Of a stretch of DNA of 52,826 nt, positions 26,579 through 44,042 are shown one piece after another (position 1 is the stretch's first letter; each line of letters opens with the position of its first letter). A program made the position numbers and the translations under genes. The stretch spans positions 1 to 52,826 of the forward strand of contig PWTU01000297.1 in the NCBI GenBank assembly GCA_003562775.1. The letters are read 5' to 3'. This DNA is from Ignavibacteriales bacterium (GTDB taxonomy: Bacteria > Bacteroidota > Ignavibacteria > T3Sed10-11). Below the pieces are notes generated by a model, which searched no databases, was not told the DNA's origin, and was given only the letters and a program-made list of their open reading frames with translations.

Positions 26579-27871
26579 CTACCTCTTCAGATTTACTACC
26601 TCATTCAGTATTTCATCGCTCACCGTGATCACTCTCGCACCCGATTGGAATCCCCGCTGTGCGATTATCATACGGGTGAATTCTTCGGTTAAGTCGATAT
26701 TCGATTGCTCGAGTGCTCTTGCAATAATCTGTGAGTTGGATTGCGACTCATCGCCGGGTGAAATTATCGAGGGTGCACCTGAATTACCGGAGATATCGTA
26801 CAAATTATTCCCCGTTCTTATCAACCCGCCGGGATTATTAAATTCAGCAAGCATTATCTGTCCCAGAGTCATAATCGTGCCGTTGGAAAATGTTCCCTGT
26901 ATACGACCGCTCAGGTCGATATTCACATCGGTTAAGATGCCGGAGCTATAACCATCCTGTTCCCGGGGAGAGACGTTCGAAGCACCTTCACTCTGAGTCA
27001 TACCGGCGAATACTCCGGATTGACCGAGATTTATGTCAATTTGTTGATTTTGATCTGCACCATTTCCCGGGTCCCAATTGTTTAATGCCAATACTACGTC
27101 AGCTCCCGCTGGGATCGCCACCCCATTAACCGCTTCTAGTGTTCCATCATCACCAAATTCAACGGTATCACCAACTCCTCCTCCTCCGACTGTTACTCCA
27201 GCAATTTCAGCTTCCCAATTCCATGTATTATTCCCGGTTTTTTCAAATGTTACCGTCAAGGTATGTCTGTTGCCGAGCGAATCAAATATAGTTACTGAGG
27301 AGTTGATAGTTTCACCTACATCTGCAGCCGCATTCAGATTCCCGGCTAATTTCACCAATTCAGTTGCATTAGCCGGAGCTTTTCTATCAAGGGCAATCCG
27401 TATGTCCTCGAGAGCAGTGCCTTCAGGAATATTGCCGTTTGCATCTGCCAACTTACCTTGCAATATCGAGCCGCTGCCAGGATGAACAAGCATACCATTT
27501 GAATCCAGTGTAAATGCCCCGTTTCTTGTATATAATAAGTGCCCCTCTTTTTTAACAATAAACAACCCGTCTCCCTGGATGGCCAGATCGGTCGACTGTC
27601 CGGTTGTTTCTATATTCCCCTGCGAGAACAAGGTATCGATAGAACTTGCCGACATACCAAGCCCAACCTGCATTGGATTTACACCGCCGGTGCCGCCGTA
27701 TGGGAGCGTCGCATTGCGAAGCATCTGGGAAAACGATTCGCTGAAGGAAATACGACTCCCCTTATATCCCACGGTGTTTATATTTGCGATGTTGTTTCCG
27801 ATTACGTCCATCATCAACTGATGGTTACGCAAACCGGTAACACCCGATGAAAGAGATCGAATGAATGACAT
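26579..27871 (-). CDS. flgE: flagellar hook protein FlgE
   Basis: FlgE is the hook subunit. The 430-aa protein has the rod/hook N-terminus MSFIRSLSSGVTGLRNHQLMMDVIGNNIANINTVGYK, a middle domain with the FlgE D2-type stretch (about 150-330), and the C-terminus LTEEFTRMIIAQRGFQSGARVI. AAAAGGAGGG lies 4-5 nt before the ATG. Its leader carries a structured RNA motif shared only with fliK. Confidence 0.96.
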   Translation of the reverse strand: MSFIRSLSSGVTGLRNHQLMMDVIGNNIANINTVGYKGSRISFSESFSQMLRNATLPYGGTGGVNPMQVGLGMSASSIDTLFSQGNIETTGQSTDLAIQGDGLFIVKKEGHLLYTRNGAFTLDSNGMLVHPGSGSILQGKLADANGNIPEGTALEDIRIALDRKAPANATELVKLAGNLNAAADVGETINSSVTIFDSLGNRHTLTVTFEKTGNNTWNWEAEIAGVTVGGGGVGDTVEFGDDGTLEAVNGVAIPAGADVVLALNNWDPGNGADQNQQIDINLGQSGVFAGMTQSEGASNVSPREQDGYSSGILTDVNIDLSGRIQGTFSNGTIMTLGQIMLAEFNNPGGLIRTGNNLYDISGNSGAPSIISPGDESQSNSQIIARALEQSNIDLTEEFTRMIIAQRGFQSGARVITVSDEILNEVVNLKR

Positions 27872-28400: not shown

Positions 28401-29069
28401 CTATCCCTCCAGAATTTCCCGAATATTCGACAACGCTATCTCGACGCCGCCAATGATAAAGAATGTTCCGTTGTCCTTGAACCGCACTCCTTCAACCTTA
28501 CCGAGAATGTATTGTTCAACCGAAATTTCGGCGCCGCCTTTATCTTTGGCTTCAACCGTGAATGAATATTTCCCTTTGTCCAATTTATGATTATTTTCAT
28601 TCGTCCCGTCCCACGTTATAGCATTCTCACCTTTACTCCCATCTCCGTTCAATGTTTTTACAAGGTTTCCCATTTCATCATACACTTTGACGACTACTGT
28701 ATCCGCCGAGTTCGCCAGGTTATACCCTAACGTGACGTCGCCTTCACCGGTATAGAAAAACCTATCGGCGCTTGCGCGGACTTCTTTGCCGATAAATGTC
28801 GTTGCAAGAGCGTTGTTGATGGATTGAGTCAAAAGGTAATTCGCATCCAAACTGAACATAAGGTTCGAGTTGATATTCGACAACTGCTCAACCGAACTGA
28901 AATGAGCAAGTTGAGCGGCAAACTCCGTTCCCTCAAGCGGGCTTAACGGATCCTGATGACGCAATTGCATGACAAGCAGCTTTAAAAAGTCATCTTTATC
29001 CAGTATGCCGCCGGGTTTTCCCGCATCGGGAAGTGAGAATTCATCTGATTGTACTCCTGGTATCATCAT
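28401..29069 (-). CDS. flgD: hook cap / hook assembly protein FlgD
   Basis: FlgD caps the growing hook. The 222-aa protein has the N-terminal signature LDKDDFLKLLVMQLRHQDPLSPLEGTEFAAQLAHFSSVEQL, a central FlgD-Ig-like and Tudor-like part, and the C-terminus GVRFKDNGTFFIIGGVEIALSNIREI. It lies between fliK and the TIGR02530 gene. Confidence 0.95.
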   Translation of the reverse strand: MMIPGVQSDEFSLPDAGKPGGILDKDDFLKLLVMQLRHQDPLSPLEGTEFAAQLAHFSSVEQLSNINSNLMFSLDANYLLTQSINNALATTFIGKEVRASADRFFYTGEGDVTLGYNLANSADTVVVKVYDEMGNLVKTLNGDGSKGENAITWDGTNENNHKLDKGKYSFTVEAKDKGGAEISVEQYILGKVEGVRFKDNGTFFIIGGVEIALSNIREILEG

Positions 29070-29083
29070 AGTAGTACCCTTTA

Positions 29084-32000
29084 CTATAGGATTAAATCGA
29101 TTGTATTGTACTCAAAAAATCTTTGCGTCCGTTTTGCTGTTTCAGGTTCGTTTTCCTCTCTTTTTCTTCCCTGATATCTTGAATGCCAGCCGGGTTGTTC
29201 ACCTCTTTCCTCTGCCTGATTCGATTGGCCCCCCGTTAAAATATCAAAGCGCTGCACTTCTATTCCGCGCGCAATAAGCGCTTCCCGTAATTGCGGGAGC
29301 TGTCCCTCAATCATCGCTTTAACAGCTGCATTAGTGACATCGACCTTCGCGGTCATTTTTCCGTTTTCCATCCTCATTTTAATAAAAAGTTCGCCCAGAT
29401 ATTCGGGCTTTAACCGGAACCGGATTTCCGATATATCATTCTGCATTCGCAGGGATACTGCTTTTGCAATATCCTCGATTGCCTGCTTTGGAAATTCGGT
29501 AAATGATGTCGTTTGTCCGGTCCCCTGCTTCGCCGGCGTTCCGCTCATCGTCGTCGTTGTTATATTTTGATGCGACGCCTCGGCTAATTTAAACTGAAAT
29601 TCCTTTGAATTTCCTTCCTGCTTTGTGAGATAATTAGTGTTCGGAGCTAAATCCGGCTGCATATTTCTTCCATCACCGGTGTGGCGCCCTTGTCCTTCGT
29701 TGTTCATATCGGACCGGGCAGACCGGAGAGGTGTTCCATCGATAGTATATGTTCTCCCGGTCATCTCCTGCCGTAAATCGGATCCCTGTCGTTCAATGTT
29801 TGGCTTCGGATTTATATGGTGTGAATTTAAATTGTTGTCGTTTTGCCGTATTGCTTGTTGAGTATCACTGTTCCTGATTTGCGTTGAAAAATTCCGCTCG
29901 GGTATTATGTTTTCCACATGATTTTTTTGAAGGGATACCGGTCTCGTGACGGTCTTCTCACTATCTATGACAGGTTCGAGAGACGGTCTTGCTGCATTCA
30001 CTGCTCCCTTTTCTACCTGAACAGGTTGTTCTCTTGCTATGATCGGATTATTTTCCTGCAATACGCGTATTTTATCGGGACCCGGCTTTTGGCTTGTTAT
30101 GTTTTCCATGCTCCTTGTAATTTGCAAACCTTGTAAATCCCGTGAAAGTGTTTGCAACTTCACATCAACCTGCGTCTTCCCCTGGCCGGAATTTTGATTT
30201 GAACCGGTTGTTGAAAAAGGATTTGCCGGTTCACTTCTTAGGGTTTGCACCATTCCCGGGCGGGTACTTTTTCCGATCGGCGGATGCACATTGTTCACAG
30301 CACGTTCACTGCCTGTTTGATTATTAAATTGTTGTCCGATGGTTCGTATTTCCGTCATTACACCTGTATACCCGTTATTACTCTGCACCCGGCTTGAATT
30401 AACTTCCGGATTTGGGGTTCCTTGCACTCCAAACAAATTCCGGGTGATATTCGGTATCGGTCTGTTCATCCTATTAAAAACTTCATTGCGATGCAACGTT
30501 GAATCGTTTACCGGTACACGGGCAGGTGTATCATTCACCCTTTCATTACCTTGGATGGCTTTTGCAGTAAATATACGCGGTACCTGTTCATTCTTTACCG
30601 ATTGATGTTCAAGTACATTCGATTGATGTAATCCTCGGAAAGCAGGCGCCTGTTCCGCTTGACCGGTTTCTGTCTGTCCGATAACTTGTGTACCTGTTAT
30701 TACTCTGGAATCGTTTGAAGAAATATAAGATTGATTAGTATTCATTTCCCTATTCGGAGTAATTTGTATTCCGAGTAAGTTCCGGGAAAGATTGGCTATT
30801 TGTCTATATACCAGGGCATTATTCTCCCTGTGGTTTAAGAATAAATCGATTGCCGGCATACGAACGGGTGTTTCATGTACACTATTACTGCTGCGGGTCG
30901 TTTTGGCAACCGGTATATACGGTACCGGATTACCCTTTTCGGACGACACTATTCCGCGGCCCGGCTCCTGTACTTTTGGAGGATACATTCCGACGAGATT
31001 CGATGGCGGATTCACCTCAGTATTGAATCTCATCCCAATGGATCGTAATTCTGCGGTTAATCCTGCATTGATTTTATTATTTGTAGATTGGACAATATGA
31101 TTATCCGTGCTTTTATACGAAAGGGTTGATGCGTGCGTATTTACCCGAACATTACTTTCACTCCGGTTCTGTATGAGGTCTGCTACAAGTATACGAGCGG
31201 GAGTATCACTCACTTTTTTATTGCTATCCTTTGTTTTACCAAGCAGCATATCCGGCGCCTGGTCGTTCTTTACCGCCGCCGGCATTACACCGGGTAGTTT
31301 CTGATGTACTTTCGGTGAATGCTCCCCTGCAGGAACCGACGTATGATTAGATTGACTATTTGATGCCTGTACGATAGAATGTTGACTTGCTCCGGAATTC
31401 AATATACGGCCGGGGACTTGACTCATTTTATTATCACTTTGAGCTGTCTGTGAACCTAACGGATTGGTCGCCGGTTCATTTTGTCTATGCTTTAGTCCGG
31501 CATCTAATATTAGATCGGCGGCCAATCTATGGTTTTTACTATCCGTACTCCGACTATCGACTTGTATTCCTTCACCTCTGATCGCAGAATTCTTATCTCC
31601 GACCTCTGACCTCTGACCTCCGATCTCCGACCTCTGAACTCCAACCTCTGACCTCTGCCCTCCGACCTCCGACCTCTGACCTCCGACCTCTGACCTCTGA
31701 CCTCTGACATCTGACATCTGACCTCCGACCTCCGACCTCTGAACTCCGACCTCCGACCTCTGATCTCTGACCTCTGACCTCTGACCTCCGACCTCTGACC
31801 TCTGACCTCCGACCTCTAACCTTTGACCTTCAACCCCCGACTTTTGTTCTCCACTCTCCGCACGATTACTCATTTGTTCTTTCAGAGTCCCACCATCCCA
31901 TATCATACCATTATTATAAAACATAGAACTACGCGGTGACACAACGCCTATGTGTGATATCTGAGACGCATTATTTTCTCCTTCACTGATTTCGACTCCC

Positions 32001-32161
32001 TCCGGACGCACCAGATCAGTTTTGCCGGCAGCTTTCAGGAGACTTAACAAATTGTTGAAAAATGAACCTGATCGCCCGGCATCTGCTCCAATACCAACCT
32101 GTCTGGATGAAATCGTTCCACTTTGTATATTTTCAATTGCTGCAATAATGCGATGCATCAT
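29084..32161 (-). CDS. fliK: flagellar hook-length control protein FliK (very long, repeat-rich)
   Basis: FliK measures hook length and triggers the FlhB switch. From the ATG at 32161 it has about 1025 aa, more than twice the enteric protein (about 405). The C-terminal Flg_hook domain (about the last 140 residues) has FRLKPEYLGELFIKMRMENGKMTAKVDV and LPQLREALIARGIEVQRFDILTGG. Residues about 106-187 come from a heptanucleotide array (QRSEVGG-type repeats). A low-complexity middle follows, with three similar blocks about 110 residues apart (DTPARILVADL, ETPVRMPAIDL, DTPARVPVND). AAAGGA lies 8 nt before this ATG. The longer reading begins with TTG and overlaps the leader. Confidence 0.9.
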   Translation of the reverse strand: MMHRIIAAIENIQSGTISSRQVGIGADAGRSGSFFNNLLSLLKAAGKTDLVRPEGVEISEGENNASQISHIGVVSPRSSMFYNNGMIWDGGTLKEQMSNRAESGEQKSGVEGQRLEVGGQRSEVGGQRSEVRDQRSEVGVQRSEVGGQMSDVRGQRSEVGGQRSEVGGQRSEVGVQRSEIGGQRSEVGDKNSAIRGEGIQVDSRSTDSKNHRLAADLILDAGLKHRQNEPATNPLGSQTAQSDNKMSQVPGRILNSGASQHSIVQASNSQSNHTSVPAGEHSPKVHQKLPGVMPAAVKNDQAPDMLLGKTKDSNKKVSDTPARILVADLIQNRSESNVRVNTHASTLSYKSTDNHIVQSTNNKINAGLTAELRSIGMRFNTEVNPPSNLVGMYPPKVQEPGRGIVSSEKGNPVPYIPVAKTTRSSNSVHETPVRMPAIDLFLNHRENNALVYRQIANLSRNLLGIQITPNREMNTNQSYISSNDSRVITGTQVIGQTETGQAEQAPAFRGLHQSNVLEHQSVKNEQVPRIFTAKAIQGNERVNDTPARVPVNDSTLHRNEVFNRMNRPIPNITRNLFGVQGTPNPEVNSSRVQSNNGYTGVMTEIRTIGQQFNNQTGSERAVNNVHPPIGKSTRPGMVQTLRSEPANPFSTTGSNQNSGQGKTQVDVKLQTLSRDLQGLQITRSMENITSQKPGPDKIRVLQENNPIIAREQPVQVEKGAVNAARPSLEPVIDSEKTVTRPVSLQKNHVENIIPERNFSTQIRNSDTQQAIRQNDNNLNSHHINPKPNIERQGSDLRQEMTGRTYTIDGTPLRSARSDMNNEGQGRHTGDGRNMQPDLAPNTNYLTKQEGNSKEFQFKLAEASHQNITTTTMSGTPAKQGTGQTTSFTEFPKQAIEDIAKAVSLRMQNDISEIRFRLKPEYLGELFIKMRMENGKMTAKVDVTNAAVKAMIEGQLPQLREALIARGIEVQRFDILTGGQSNQAEERGEQPGWHSRYQGRKREENEPETAKRTQRFFEYNTIDLIL
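30500..31230 (-). repeat. imperfect ~330-bp tandem repeats within fliK
   Basis: Three related protein blocks occur at about 112-residue spacing: KVSDTPARILVADL, SVHETPVRMPAIDL and RVNDTPARVPVND. They have similar flanks such as VKNDQAP/VKNEQVP and ELRSIGMRFN/EIRTIGQQFN. They mark an old internal duplication that lengthened the FliK ruler. Confidence 0.6.
31601..31845 (-). repeat. (GACCTCY)n heptanucleotide tandem repeat inside fliK
   Basis: Counting from 31601 on the plus strand gives 31 consecutive 7-bp units close to GACCTCT or GACCTCC up to 31817. Four decayed units extend to 31845. Because 7 is not a multiple of 3, gain or loss of one unit changes the reading frame of fliK. The array itself stays open in all three frames and always encodes the same QRSEVGG-like cycle. 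An alternative minus-strand frame leaves the array and reaches a stop at 31510. Confidence 0.92.
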
Positions 32162-32169
32162 ATTGACGT

Positions 32170-32175
32170 TCCTTT
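32170..32175 (-). promoter_or_regulatory. Shine-Dalgarno of fliK, complementary to the leader
   Basis: AAAGGA lies 8 nt before the fliK ATG at 32161. Its complement TCCTTT lies at 32237-32232, directly 3' of the leader motif's last stem. The stretch GGACAAAGGAACGTC also puts the GGA in a small GAC/GTC hairpin loop, which resembles a CsrA target. The CsrA idea is inference. Confidence 0.5.
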
Positions 32176-32238
32176 GTCCAGAATTCAATCGTCCAATGTG
32201 ACGTTGCTTTATTTTAATAATACATCTGATGAAAGGAC

Positions 32239-32320: not shown

Positions 32321-32884
32321 TTAATCACTTCCATCAGTTGAATAACTCATAATTCTTGCCGCTCTATCGGGTTCAATGTTACTCATTATCCGCGCGGCCT
32401 GTCTTCGATTGACAGTTAACAGTACGCTCCGCACCTTACCGTCATCCAATGTCGACAACACCCGTACTGCATCCTCTGCATCCATCGATTCGATTATCTT
32501 TGCAAAATTTTGATCTGCTTCTACCTTTTTATTTTCTAACTTAACATTCAAATTACGTATATCAACACGTAATGCCGCTGCTTTTTCACTCTCATCTTCC
32601 AGCAACGACGAAAGGTTTCTAATACTATCTTCTAAAACATGTATCGTACTATCTTTTTGAGAAATAACAGTTTGTATGGCCATTTTTTCATTTTCGATCG
32701 CCAAAGTATCTCCGTTCAAATGCTCGGTGTTTTCGGTGTTTTGGATTCCCGTCTGATCAGCCAAAGGAACATCGGCAGAAAAGCCGAATATCTCCGGTTT
32801 AACTATGAAGATGAGTACTGCTATTTGAAACAGCAGCACAAATGAAACAGTACTCACAACCAAATATGTTGCCGTCGATTTCAT
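32321..32884 (-). CDS. MotE-like flagellar protein (MgtE N-terminal-like domain)
   Basis: This 187-aa protein has one N-terminal membrane helix (about residues 7-28), a coiled coil (about 65-125), and a C-terminal domain with AKIIESMDAEDAVRVLSTLDDGKVRSVLLTVNRRQAARIMSNI. The C-terminus matches the MgtE-N-like domain of MotE, a periplasmic stator chaperone. The position between fliJ and fliK is typical of such genes in several phyla. The exact role is inferred. Confidence 0.8.
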   Translation of the reverse strand: MKSTATYLVVSTVSFVLLFQIAVLIFIVKPEIFGFSADVPLADQTGIQNTENTEHLNGDTLAIENEKMAIQTVISQKDSTIHVLEDSIRNLSSLLEDESEKAAALRVDIRNLNVKLENKKVEADQNFAKIIESMDAEDAVRVLSTLDDGKVRSVLLTVNRRQAARIMSNIEPDRAARIMSYSTDGSD

Positions 32885-32887
32885 CGA

Positions 32888-33322
32888 TTACATGCTCCAA
32901 CGTATCCTGTTGGCCAATATATCCATCAGCCGTTGATCTTTCCGGACCTTTTCTTTTAATAATTCAGCTTCACGTTTTTCACTCAATATTTCTATTTGCT
33001 TTTTAGATTTCTCCTTTTCCAGTAACTCGCCGCGCTTTCCCTCTTCCAGCGATTGTATTTCACCCAATTTATTTACTTGCGTCGTAAGTTTATCACTGAG
33101 ATTATCGATATACGCTTTACTCGATTGAATTTCAGTTGCACGTAATTTTAAATTACTCGCGAAATCGCTTGTTGCACCTTCTTTCAACTCTCTCAATTCT
33201 TCAAAATTCTTTTCTTCAATTTCCTTCTCCCCCAGTAATTTTGCCAGTTCCTGCTGCACTTTTTTCTGTTGGTGTACCTTAACTTTAAGAATTGTATCTA
33301 AGCGTTGTTCTGTTATTTTCAT
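32888..33322 (-). CDS. fliJ: flagellar export protein FliJ
   Basis: FliJ is a coiled-coil protein that links the ATPase ring to the FlhA gate. The 144-aa protein is almost all helical and rich in Lys and Glu, with LDTILKVKVHQQKKVQQELAKL at the start. It overlaps fliI by 4 bp (ATGA). FliJ sequences diverge, so the call relies on length, coiled coil and position after fliI. Confidence 0.88.
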   Translation of the reverse strand: MKITEQRLDTILKVKVHQQKKVQQELAKLLGEKEIEEKNFEELRELKEGATSDFASNLKLRATEIQSSKAYIDNLSDKLTTQVNKLGEIQSLEEGKRGELLEKEKSKKQIEILSEKREAELLKEKVRKDQRLMDILANRIRWSM

Positions 33323-43979: not shown

Positions 43980-44042
43980 GTTAATGGTTATCGGTTAATT
44001 GTAAAGTATTAGGGATCCGACAATTAACGATTAACAATTAAC
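43980..44042. repeat. palindrome of TTAATTGTTAA type (copy B)
   Basis: GTTAATGGTTATCGGTTAATTGT (43980-44002) pairs with ACAATTAACGATTAACAATTAAC (44020-44042), 20 of 23 positions, with a 17-nt loop. It shares the GGTTAATTGT core with the repeat between flgA and flgH. It fills the spacer between the two cheY genes. Confidence 0.7.

Follow-up and report, generated by a model that had tools for sequence, protein, structure and literature searches.

The heptanucleotide array in the fliK gene of this Ignavibacteriales bacterium is probably a copy of a dispersed heptamer family, (TCYGAYN)n, that came to lie in the ruler region of FliK, a region tolerant of length changes, where it would be kept in frame and change the length of the protein without forming an evolved switch. 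The observed parts of this explanation are the array, the family, the absence of the array from FliK relatives, the differences in unit number at related family sites, the simulated effects on the reading frame, and a 21-bp pattern in phase with the codons.

The array and its host gene

The window, meaning the whole 52,826-nucleotide stretch of DNA that was analysed, contains the following features around the array.

26579..27871, minus strand: flgE-type hook protein gene
28401..29069, minus strand: flgD, directly downstream of fliK
29084..32188, minus strand: fliK, hook-length control protein, 1034 aa from the TTG at 32188 taken by the ORF finder
29216..29458 (from residue numbers), minus strand: Flg_hook domain (PF02120), located downstream of the array at FliK residues 911-991 and scoring 70.2 bits (cut-off 29.8)
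30230..31280 (approximate), minus strand: section of the FliK linker containing degenerate repeats at a spacing of about 112 aa (motifs at residues 328, 439 and 553)
31574..31600, minus strand: decayed units flanking the array on its 3' side in the gene
31601..31845, minus strand: heptamer array of 35 units, 31 of them near-perfect, reading GAGGTCR on the coding strand of fliK; FliK residues 115-196
32321..32884, minus strand: gene for a MotE-like or MgtE_N-type protein, upstream of fliK, just under the Pfam cut-off
32888..33322, minus strand: fliJ

FliK is the ruler of hook length. The gene assigned to it here lies in a flagellar neighbourhood of fliF, fliG, fliH, fliI, fliJ, the MotE-like gene, fliK, flgD, a small flagellar protein gene, flgE, fliL and fliM, and its product carries the C-terminal Flg_hook domain. 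The placement of the array within the fliK coding region, as given in the preliminary description, was confirmed by a 1034-aa open reading frame with an intact Flg_hook domain. Judged from the sequence, the ATG at 32161, nine codons downstream of the TTG and preceded by AAAGGA, is the likelier start. Segments A and C of the linker align directly with a score of 141, whereas 1000 shuffles never exceeded 71; for A-B and B-C the scores are trivial, since those segments overlap, and a BLASTP self-comparison of FliK revealed no internal repeat. Because its degenerate repeats are spaced about 112 aa apart, the linker can be taken to have grown by duplication before. Elsewhere in the window, a weak heptamer repeat, ACAATTA, is present in 3.3 copies at 44020-44042.

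Counted unit by unit in register with position 31601, 35 heptamers extend to 31845. The first 31 (31601 to 31817) differ from GACCTCY at no more than one position, and the final four (starting at 31818, 31825, 31832 and 31839) have 2, 1, 2 and 2 mismatches and are decayed, in agreement with the earlier tally of about 31 near-perfect and four decayed units. Tandem Repeats Finder (TRF) reported a single array at 31597-31829, with 33.3 copies at period 7 (score 305) and, more strongly, 11.1 copies at period 21 (score 354). The array is heavily interrupted: its longest perfect 7-bp tract is 24 bp, about 3.4 units, and 9 of 32 core units contain mismatches beyond the C/T variation, which is not the long pure tract with a high slip rate of a contingency locus. 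The longest exact repeat within it is 34 bp. The coding-strand unit GAGGTCR is open in all three frames and encodes hydrophilic SEV[G/R]GQR repeats, while the opposite strand repeatedly meets stop codons. As the GACCTCY pattern matches 13 times in the genome and the reversed pattern 0 times, a chance origin of the array is excluded. Among the window and 18 loci of the bin, the fliK array is the longest by far (268 bp, compared with at most 74 bp), though assembly may have failed at longer pure arrays elsewhere.

The consequences of unit changes were simulated by a script that removed or repeated units at each array position and then translated FliK. Removal of one unit left a product of 223 aa at 32 of 35 positions and of 121 aa at the other 3, and addition of one unit yielded one of 200 aa at 33 of 35 positions and of 121 aa at the remaining 2. 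With two units removed, the product was 193 aa at all 34 positions; with two added, it was 230 aa at 30 of 35 positions and either 128 or 184 aa at the other 5. Every one of these changes removed Flg_hook, with translation stopping at 121-230 aa, so the earlier statement that a one-unit change shifts the frame and removes this domain is correct. The companion statement, that a change of three units alters length only, is nearly always true in the simulation, Flg_hook being kept at 33 of 33 positions after removal of three units and at 33 of 35 after addition. In these respects, a 7-bp unit (a non-multiple of three) inside an open reading frame and the abolition of the full product by unit loss or gain, fliK resembles a contingency locus.

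A dispersed heptamer family

When the wider consensus TCYGAYN was searched as a repeat with at most one mismatch, 109 matches were obtained in this bin (G000) and none for the reversed control, the profile of a dispersed family with many arrays of one unit in a single genome. These matches include at least 30 separate sites on 22 contigs, counted by eye among the matches listed. The GACCTCY pattern is present on two further contigs of the bin, and on many more with one mismatch. All 6 genomes of the genus contain the TCYGAYN family, with a reversed control of 0 in each. Under the stricter GACCTCY pattern, 5 of 61 relatives were positive (reversed control 0 of 61), as were 7 of 395 genomes of the phylum (reversed control 1 of 395). 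Among named genomes, a longer GACCTCY pattern was found in at least 120 stretches from many phyla; taxa among the matches listed are Verrucomicrobia, Lentisphaerae, Kiritimatiellae, Planctomycetes, Chloroflexi, several Proteobacteria, Bacteroidetes, Streptomyces and others. One of these arrays, in Thalassolituus marinus IMCC1826 (L066 4553-4670), is 118 bp long with an 87-bp perfect tract, and its overlying ORF looks spurious. Additionally, GACCTCY arrays occur in 44 stretches of IMG/VR viral contigs (L255-L298), which were counted only; viral contigs are a possible route of spread.

Of the 135 arrays in the 120 named loci, 82 had no ORF with at least 80 aa outside the array, the ORFs being called mechanically. 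The remaining 53 lie in such ORFs, 36 in the GAGGTCR sense and 17 in the opposite sense, an excess that is expected because only the GAGGTCR strand is free of stops. A Pfam search of 24 ORFs with or adjoining arrays, from the named loci and this bin, found no flagellar gene; the array-associated ORFs matched asparagine synthase, fumarase, RibD, PKS, serine/threonine kinases, SpoU methylase, MoeA and others, or had no match. A flagellar preference of the family was therefore rejected, the host genes among these 24 ORFs having no common theme.

A general heptamer bias in unselected DNA was also considered and rejected. Across 424 kb (the window plus 40 stretches of the bin), period 7 was the commonest among arrays of at least 2.9 copies (9 of 29, with mixed units), and no GACCTCY array was seen there outside the window. 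A stricter count of perfect runs gave almost none at any period. In the 120 named loci (L055-L174), which were chosen for a heptamer, 42 of 76 other perfect short arrays had period 7, with many different units. Neither GACCTCY unit strings nor the peptide repeats were found in the literature searched, the sole match being a fish microsatellite paper; this does not prove that no bacterial report exists.

Where sites of the family are related to each other, their arrays do not always have the same number of units, as is typical of a dispersed heptameric repeat family. Two copies in the bin, L010 and L018, both apparently noncoding, have flanks that are 91-94.5% alike and arrays that differ by exactly 21 bp; near these arrays, at about 530-640, both copies also have a heptamer-like CACCTNN repeat. 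Three related pairs across bins (L013/L201, L011/L208 and L014/L211) differ variably in array length, one of them with about 3 and about 20 units. Arrays were also found in frame within the Pfam kinase match of L012, L015 and L205, a relative from G005, and a 60-nt difference between the kinase arrays of L012 and L205 keeps the frame. The kinase arrays (L012 3541-3574 and L015 3461-3534 in G000, L205 at about 620-660 in G005) are situated between TLRQ and AIDYA. The Ser/Thr kinases of L012 and L015 also carry TPR repeats, and a second heptamer repeat, AACCTGG, adjoins the array in L012 and L205.

History of the array and competing readings

Seven FliK relatives were recovered across 41 genomes by match to the C-terminal region, and none of the 7 has a heptamer array. 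The open frame of the present FliK is 1056 aa, compared with 278-763 aa in these relatives. The nearest relative, from congener G004, is syntenic (MotE-like gene, fliK, flgD), 483 aa long, 44% identical over the C-terminus, and without the array. When the genus was searched for a second flagellar locus, G004 was the only one of the 5 congeners to yield FliJ.

The array also has a higher-order pattern. The Y base is C or T in ratios of 8 to 2, 0 to 11 and 4 to 7 at codon positions 1, 2 and 3, respectively. Identity between units at lags of 3, 6, 9, 12 and 15 exceeds that at other lags (unit permutation, P = 0.0009), and a wider cut of the array also has a three-unit lag excess (P = 0.005). This is the pattern expected if retained changes came in threes, and it suggests an in-frame history. 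It is not proof of one, because noncoding arrays form blocks too and there is no third-position excess of mismatches. Among 22 other long heterogeneous arrays, from which perfectly uniform arrays, arrays of fewer than 14 units and near-duplicates had been dropped, 1 (L103) has a 21-bp pattern and 4 have a 14-bp pattern; together with the three-unit difference between the noncoding L010 and L018, this indicates that coding constraint is not needed for such blocks to form. A test for purifying selection on the peptide, as an excess of third-position changes, gave no support, mismatches at sites other than Y numbering 1, 5 and 4 at codon positions 1, 2 and 3.

The favoured history, a tolerated dispersed repeat kept in frame, can be outlined as follows. 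A GACCTCY-form copy of (TCYGAYN)n would have settled and grown between the N-terminus and the C-terminal switch domain of FliK. Its tolerance there would be explained by a GAGGTCR strand that lacks stops in all three frames and by the hydrophilic character of the added SEVGGQR repeat. Units would then be gained and lost through slippage or unequal recombination, and frame-breaking variants would mostly be removed by selection. The retained changes would be three-unit steps that alter FliK by 7 aa each and do not constitute an evolved ON/OFF switch. At the Salmonella rate of 0.2 nm per residue, if it applies here, each such step may correspond to about 1.4 nm of hook, and the whole array of 82 residues would add about 16 nm.

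The preliminary description had proposed that the array could act as a phase switch, and noted that loss of FliK usually gives long hooks without filaments. As a contingency locus, fliK would be switched off and on by slips of one or two units, and the population would reversibly mix filamentous cells with non-motile polyhook cells. The unit length, the loss of Flg_hook in all simulated one- and two-unit changes with stops at residues 121-230, and the precedent of E. coli neuO, a coding heptanucleotide with a frame-dependent ON state (PMC13001214), are all consistent with a contingency locus, and this reading keeps a small but real chance of being right. The inference is nevertheless not supported, given a longest perfect tract of only 24 bp, the absence of the array from all 7 FliK relatives, the membership in a dispersed family (at least 30 sites in the bin) without a gene theme, and the 21-bp pattern. 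Classical phase switches depend on long pure tracts, and interrupted arrays are expected to slip less. Switching at fliK is possible; a tolerated dispersed repeat that stays in frame is more likely, and the array is at present weak evidence for motility phase variation. It is likewise unlikely that three-unit steps were selected for fine-tuning of hook length. The unusual length of this FliK, its spaced linker repeats and the period-21 pattern argue for such adaptive tuning, as do Salmonella FliK variants in which length changes hook length by 0.2 nm per inserted residue (PMC6126814); however, the period-21 pattern is equally expected from the mere purging of frame-breaking changes, and Salmonella FliK of 520 aa or more impairs motility (PMC6126814). 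Quite improbable is the broader proposal that the family, spreading between sites and phyla by a heptamer-specific process, built an evolvable tape measure, in which FliK lengths filtered in steps of three would set the hook in small quanta and rare one-unit slips would produce non-motile polyhooks as a by-product.

The remaining readings concern the assembly and the nucleic acid itself. The bin comprises 588 contigs and is 85% complete with 6.98% contamination, and stretches of it are 100% identical to the congener bins G004 and G003 (2977 bp between L020 and L214, 595 bp between L018 and L195). These identical stretches suggest contigs shared or misbinned across the bins of the genus; the bin may therefore be composite, and some arrays may belong to other species. 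That such an assembly gives a wrong length for the array, or a wrong position in fliK, is very improbable even so, since a longest exact repeat of 34 bp allows moderate k-mers to resolve the array and the sequence on either side of it belongs to a single long ORF with Flg_hook at its end. Hardly credible is a role of the array as nucleic acid, for example through GGAGG motifs that, like Shine-Dalgarno sequences, pause or restart ribosomes. The coding strand of the array has 9 GGAGG and 17 AGAGG motifs, and the other strand has no GGAGG, but these motifs follow directly from the sequence of the unit.

The fliK array is ordinary in kind and a possible hook-length tuner. If the array truly changes FliK length in nature, it offers a natural experiment on the ruler model of hook-length control. 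The family also presents one heptamer across many phyla without a known means of spreading, and its arrays inside folded domains such as kinases show repeats becoming protein sequence.

Comparison with known systems

The ruler function that the array would affect has been explored in Salmonella, where hook length ranges over 42-135 nm with FliK variants of 363-785 aa (PMC6126814). Deletions in the flexible linker of FliK lead to a shorter hook and looser length control (PMC6972891). Among repeat systems, neuO has the array (AAGACTC)n, is carried by the CUS-3 prophage of E. coli K1, and is ON if the unit number is divisible by three; across 64 genomes it has 3-53 units, and 42 of the 64 are OFF, out of frame (PMC13001214). 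As in fliK, a heptanucleotide array lies in a coding region and the full-length product requires a unit number that keeps the frame. In contrast, unit variation has been measured in neuO, where the array occupies the 5' end of the gene, whereas the fliK array is interrupted, comes from a dispersed family, and is known here from one genome.

Dispersed heptamers provide further parallels. TAACTGA arrays in Beggiatoaceae, Cyanobacteria and some Bacteroidetes are, like the present family, dispersed and patchy over distant lineages, with indels mostly in 7-nt steps; one of their strands also has a stop in every frame, hence copies deep in genes are reverse-oriented (PMC4679880). The unit is a different one, however, and in the best-studied genome the copies are mostly intergenic, just before start codons; fliK is not mentioned in the available portion of that report (PMC4679880). 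Heptanucleotide elements of Geobacter metallireducens, including class 3 with the consensus MTYCTGA and a GGACCGG type, are present as numerous copies of 4-5 tandem heptamers each, and those of the GGACCGG type occur inside genes as well (PMC2700814). The CTTCTGA unit, which is present in the genus studied here, fits MTYCTGA, but GACCTCT fits it at only 6 of 7 positions, the comparison being by consensus. GGGNATC repeats of Xanthomonas and Nostoc likewise form a degenerate heptamer family, mainly intergenic, in which unit number varies between related genomes; they differ in having a G-tract unit with proposed G-quadruplexes and in being under-represented in coding regions (PMC4692102). Heptamers are over-represented among bacterial repeats, for which the idea of polymerase slippage has been cited (PMC4692102). 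Dispersed heptamer families are thus already known, and the GACCTCY array in fliK joins them as a further case.
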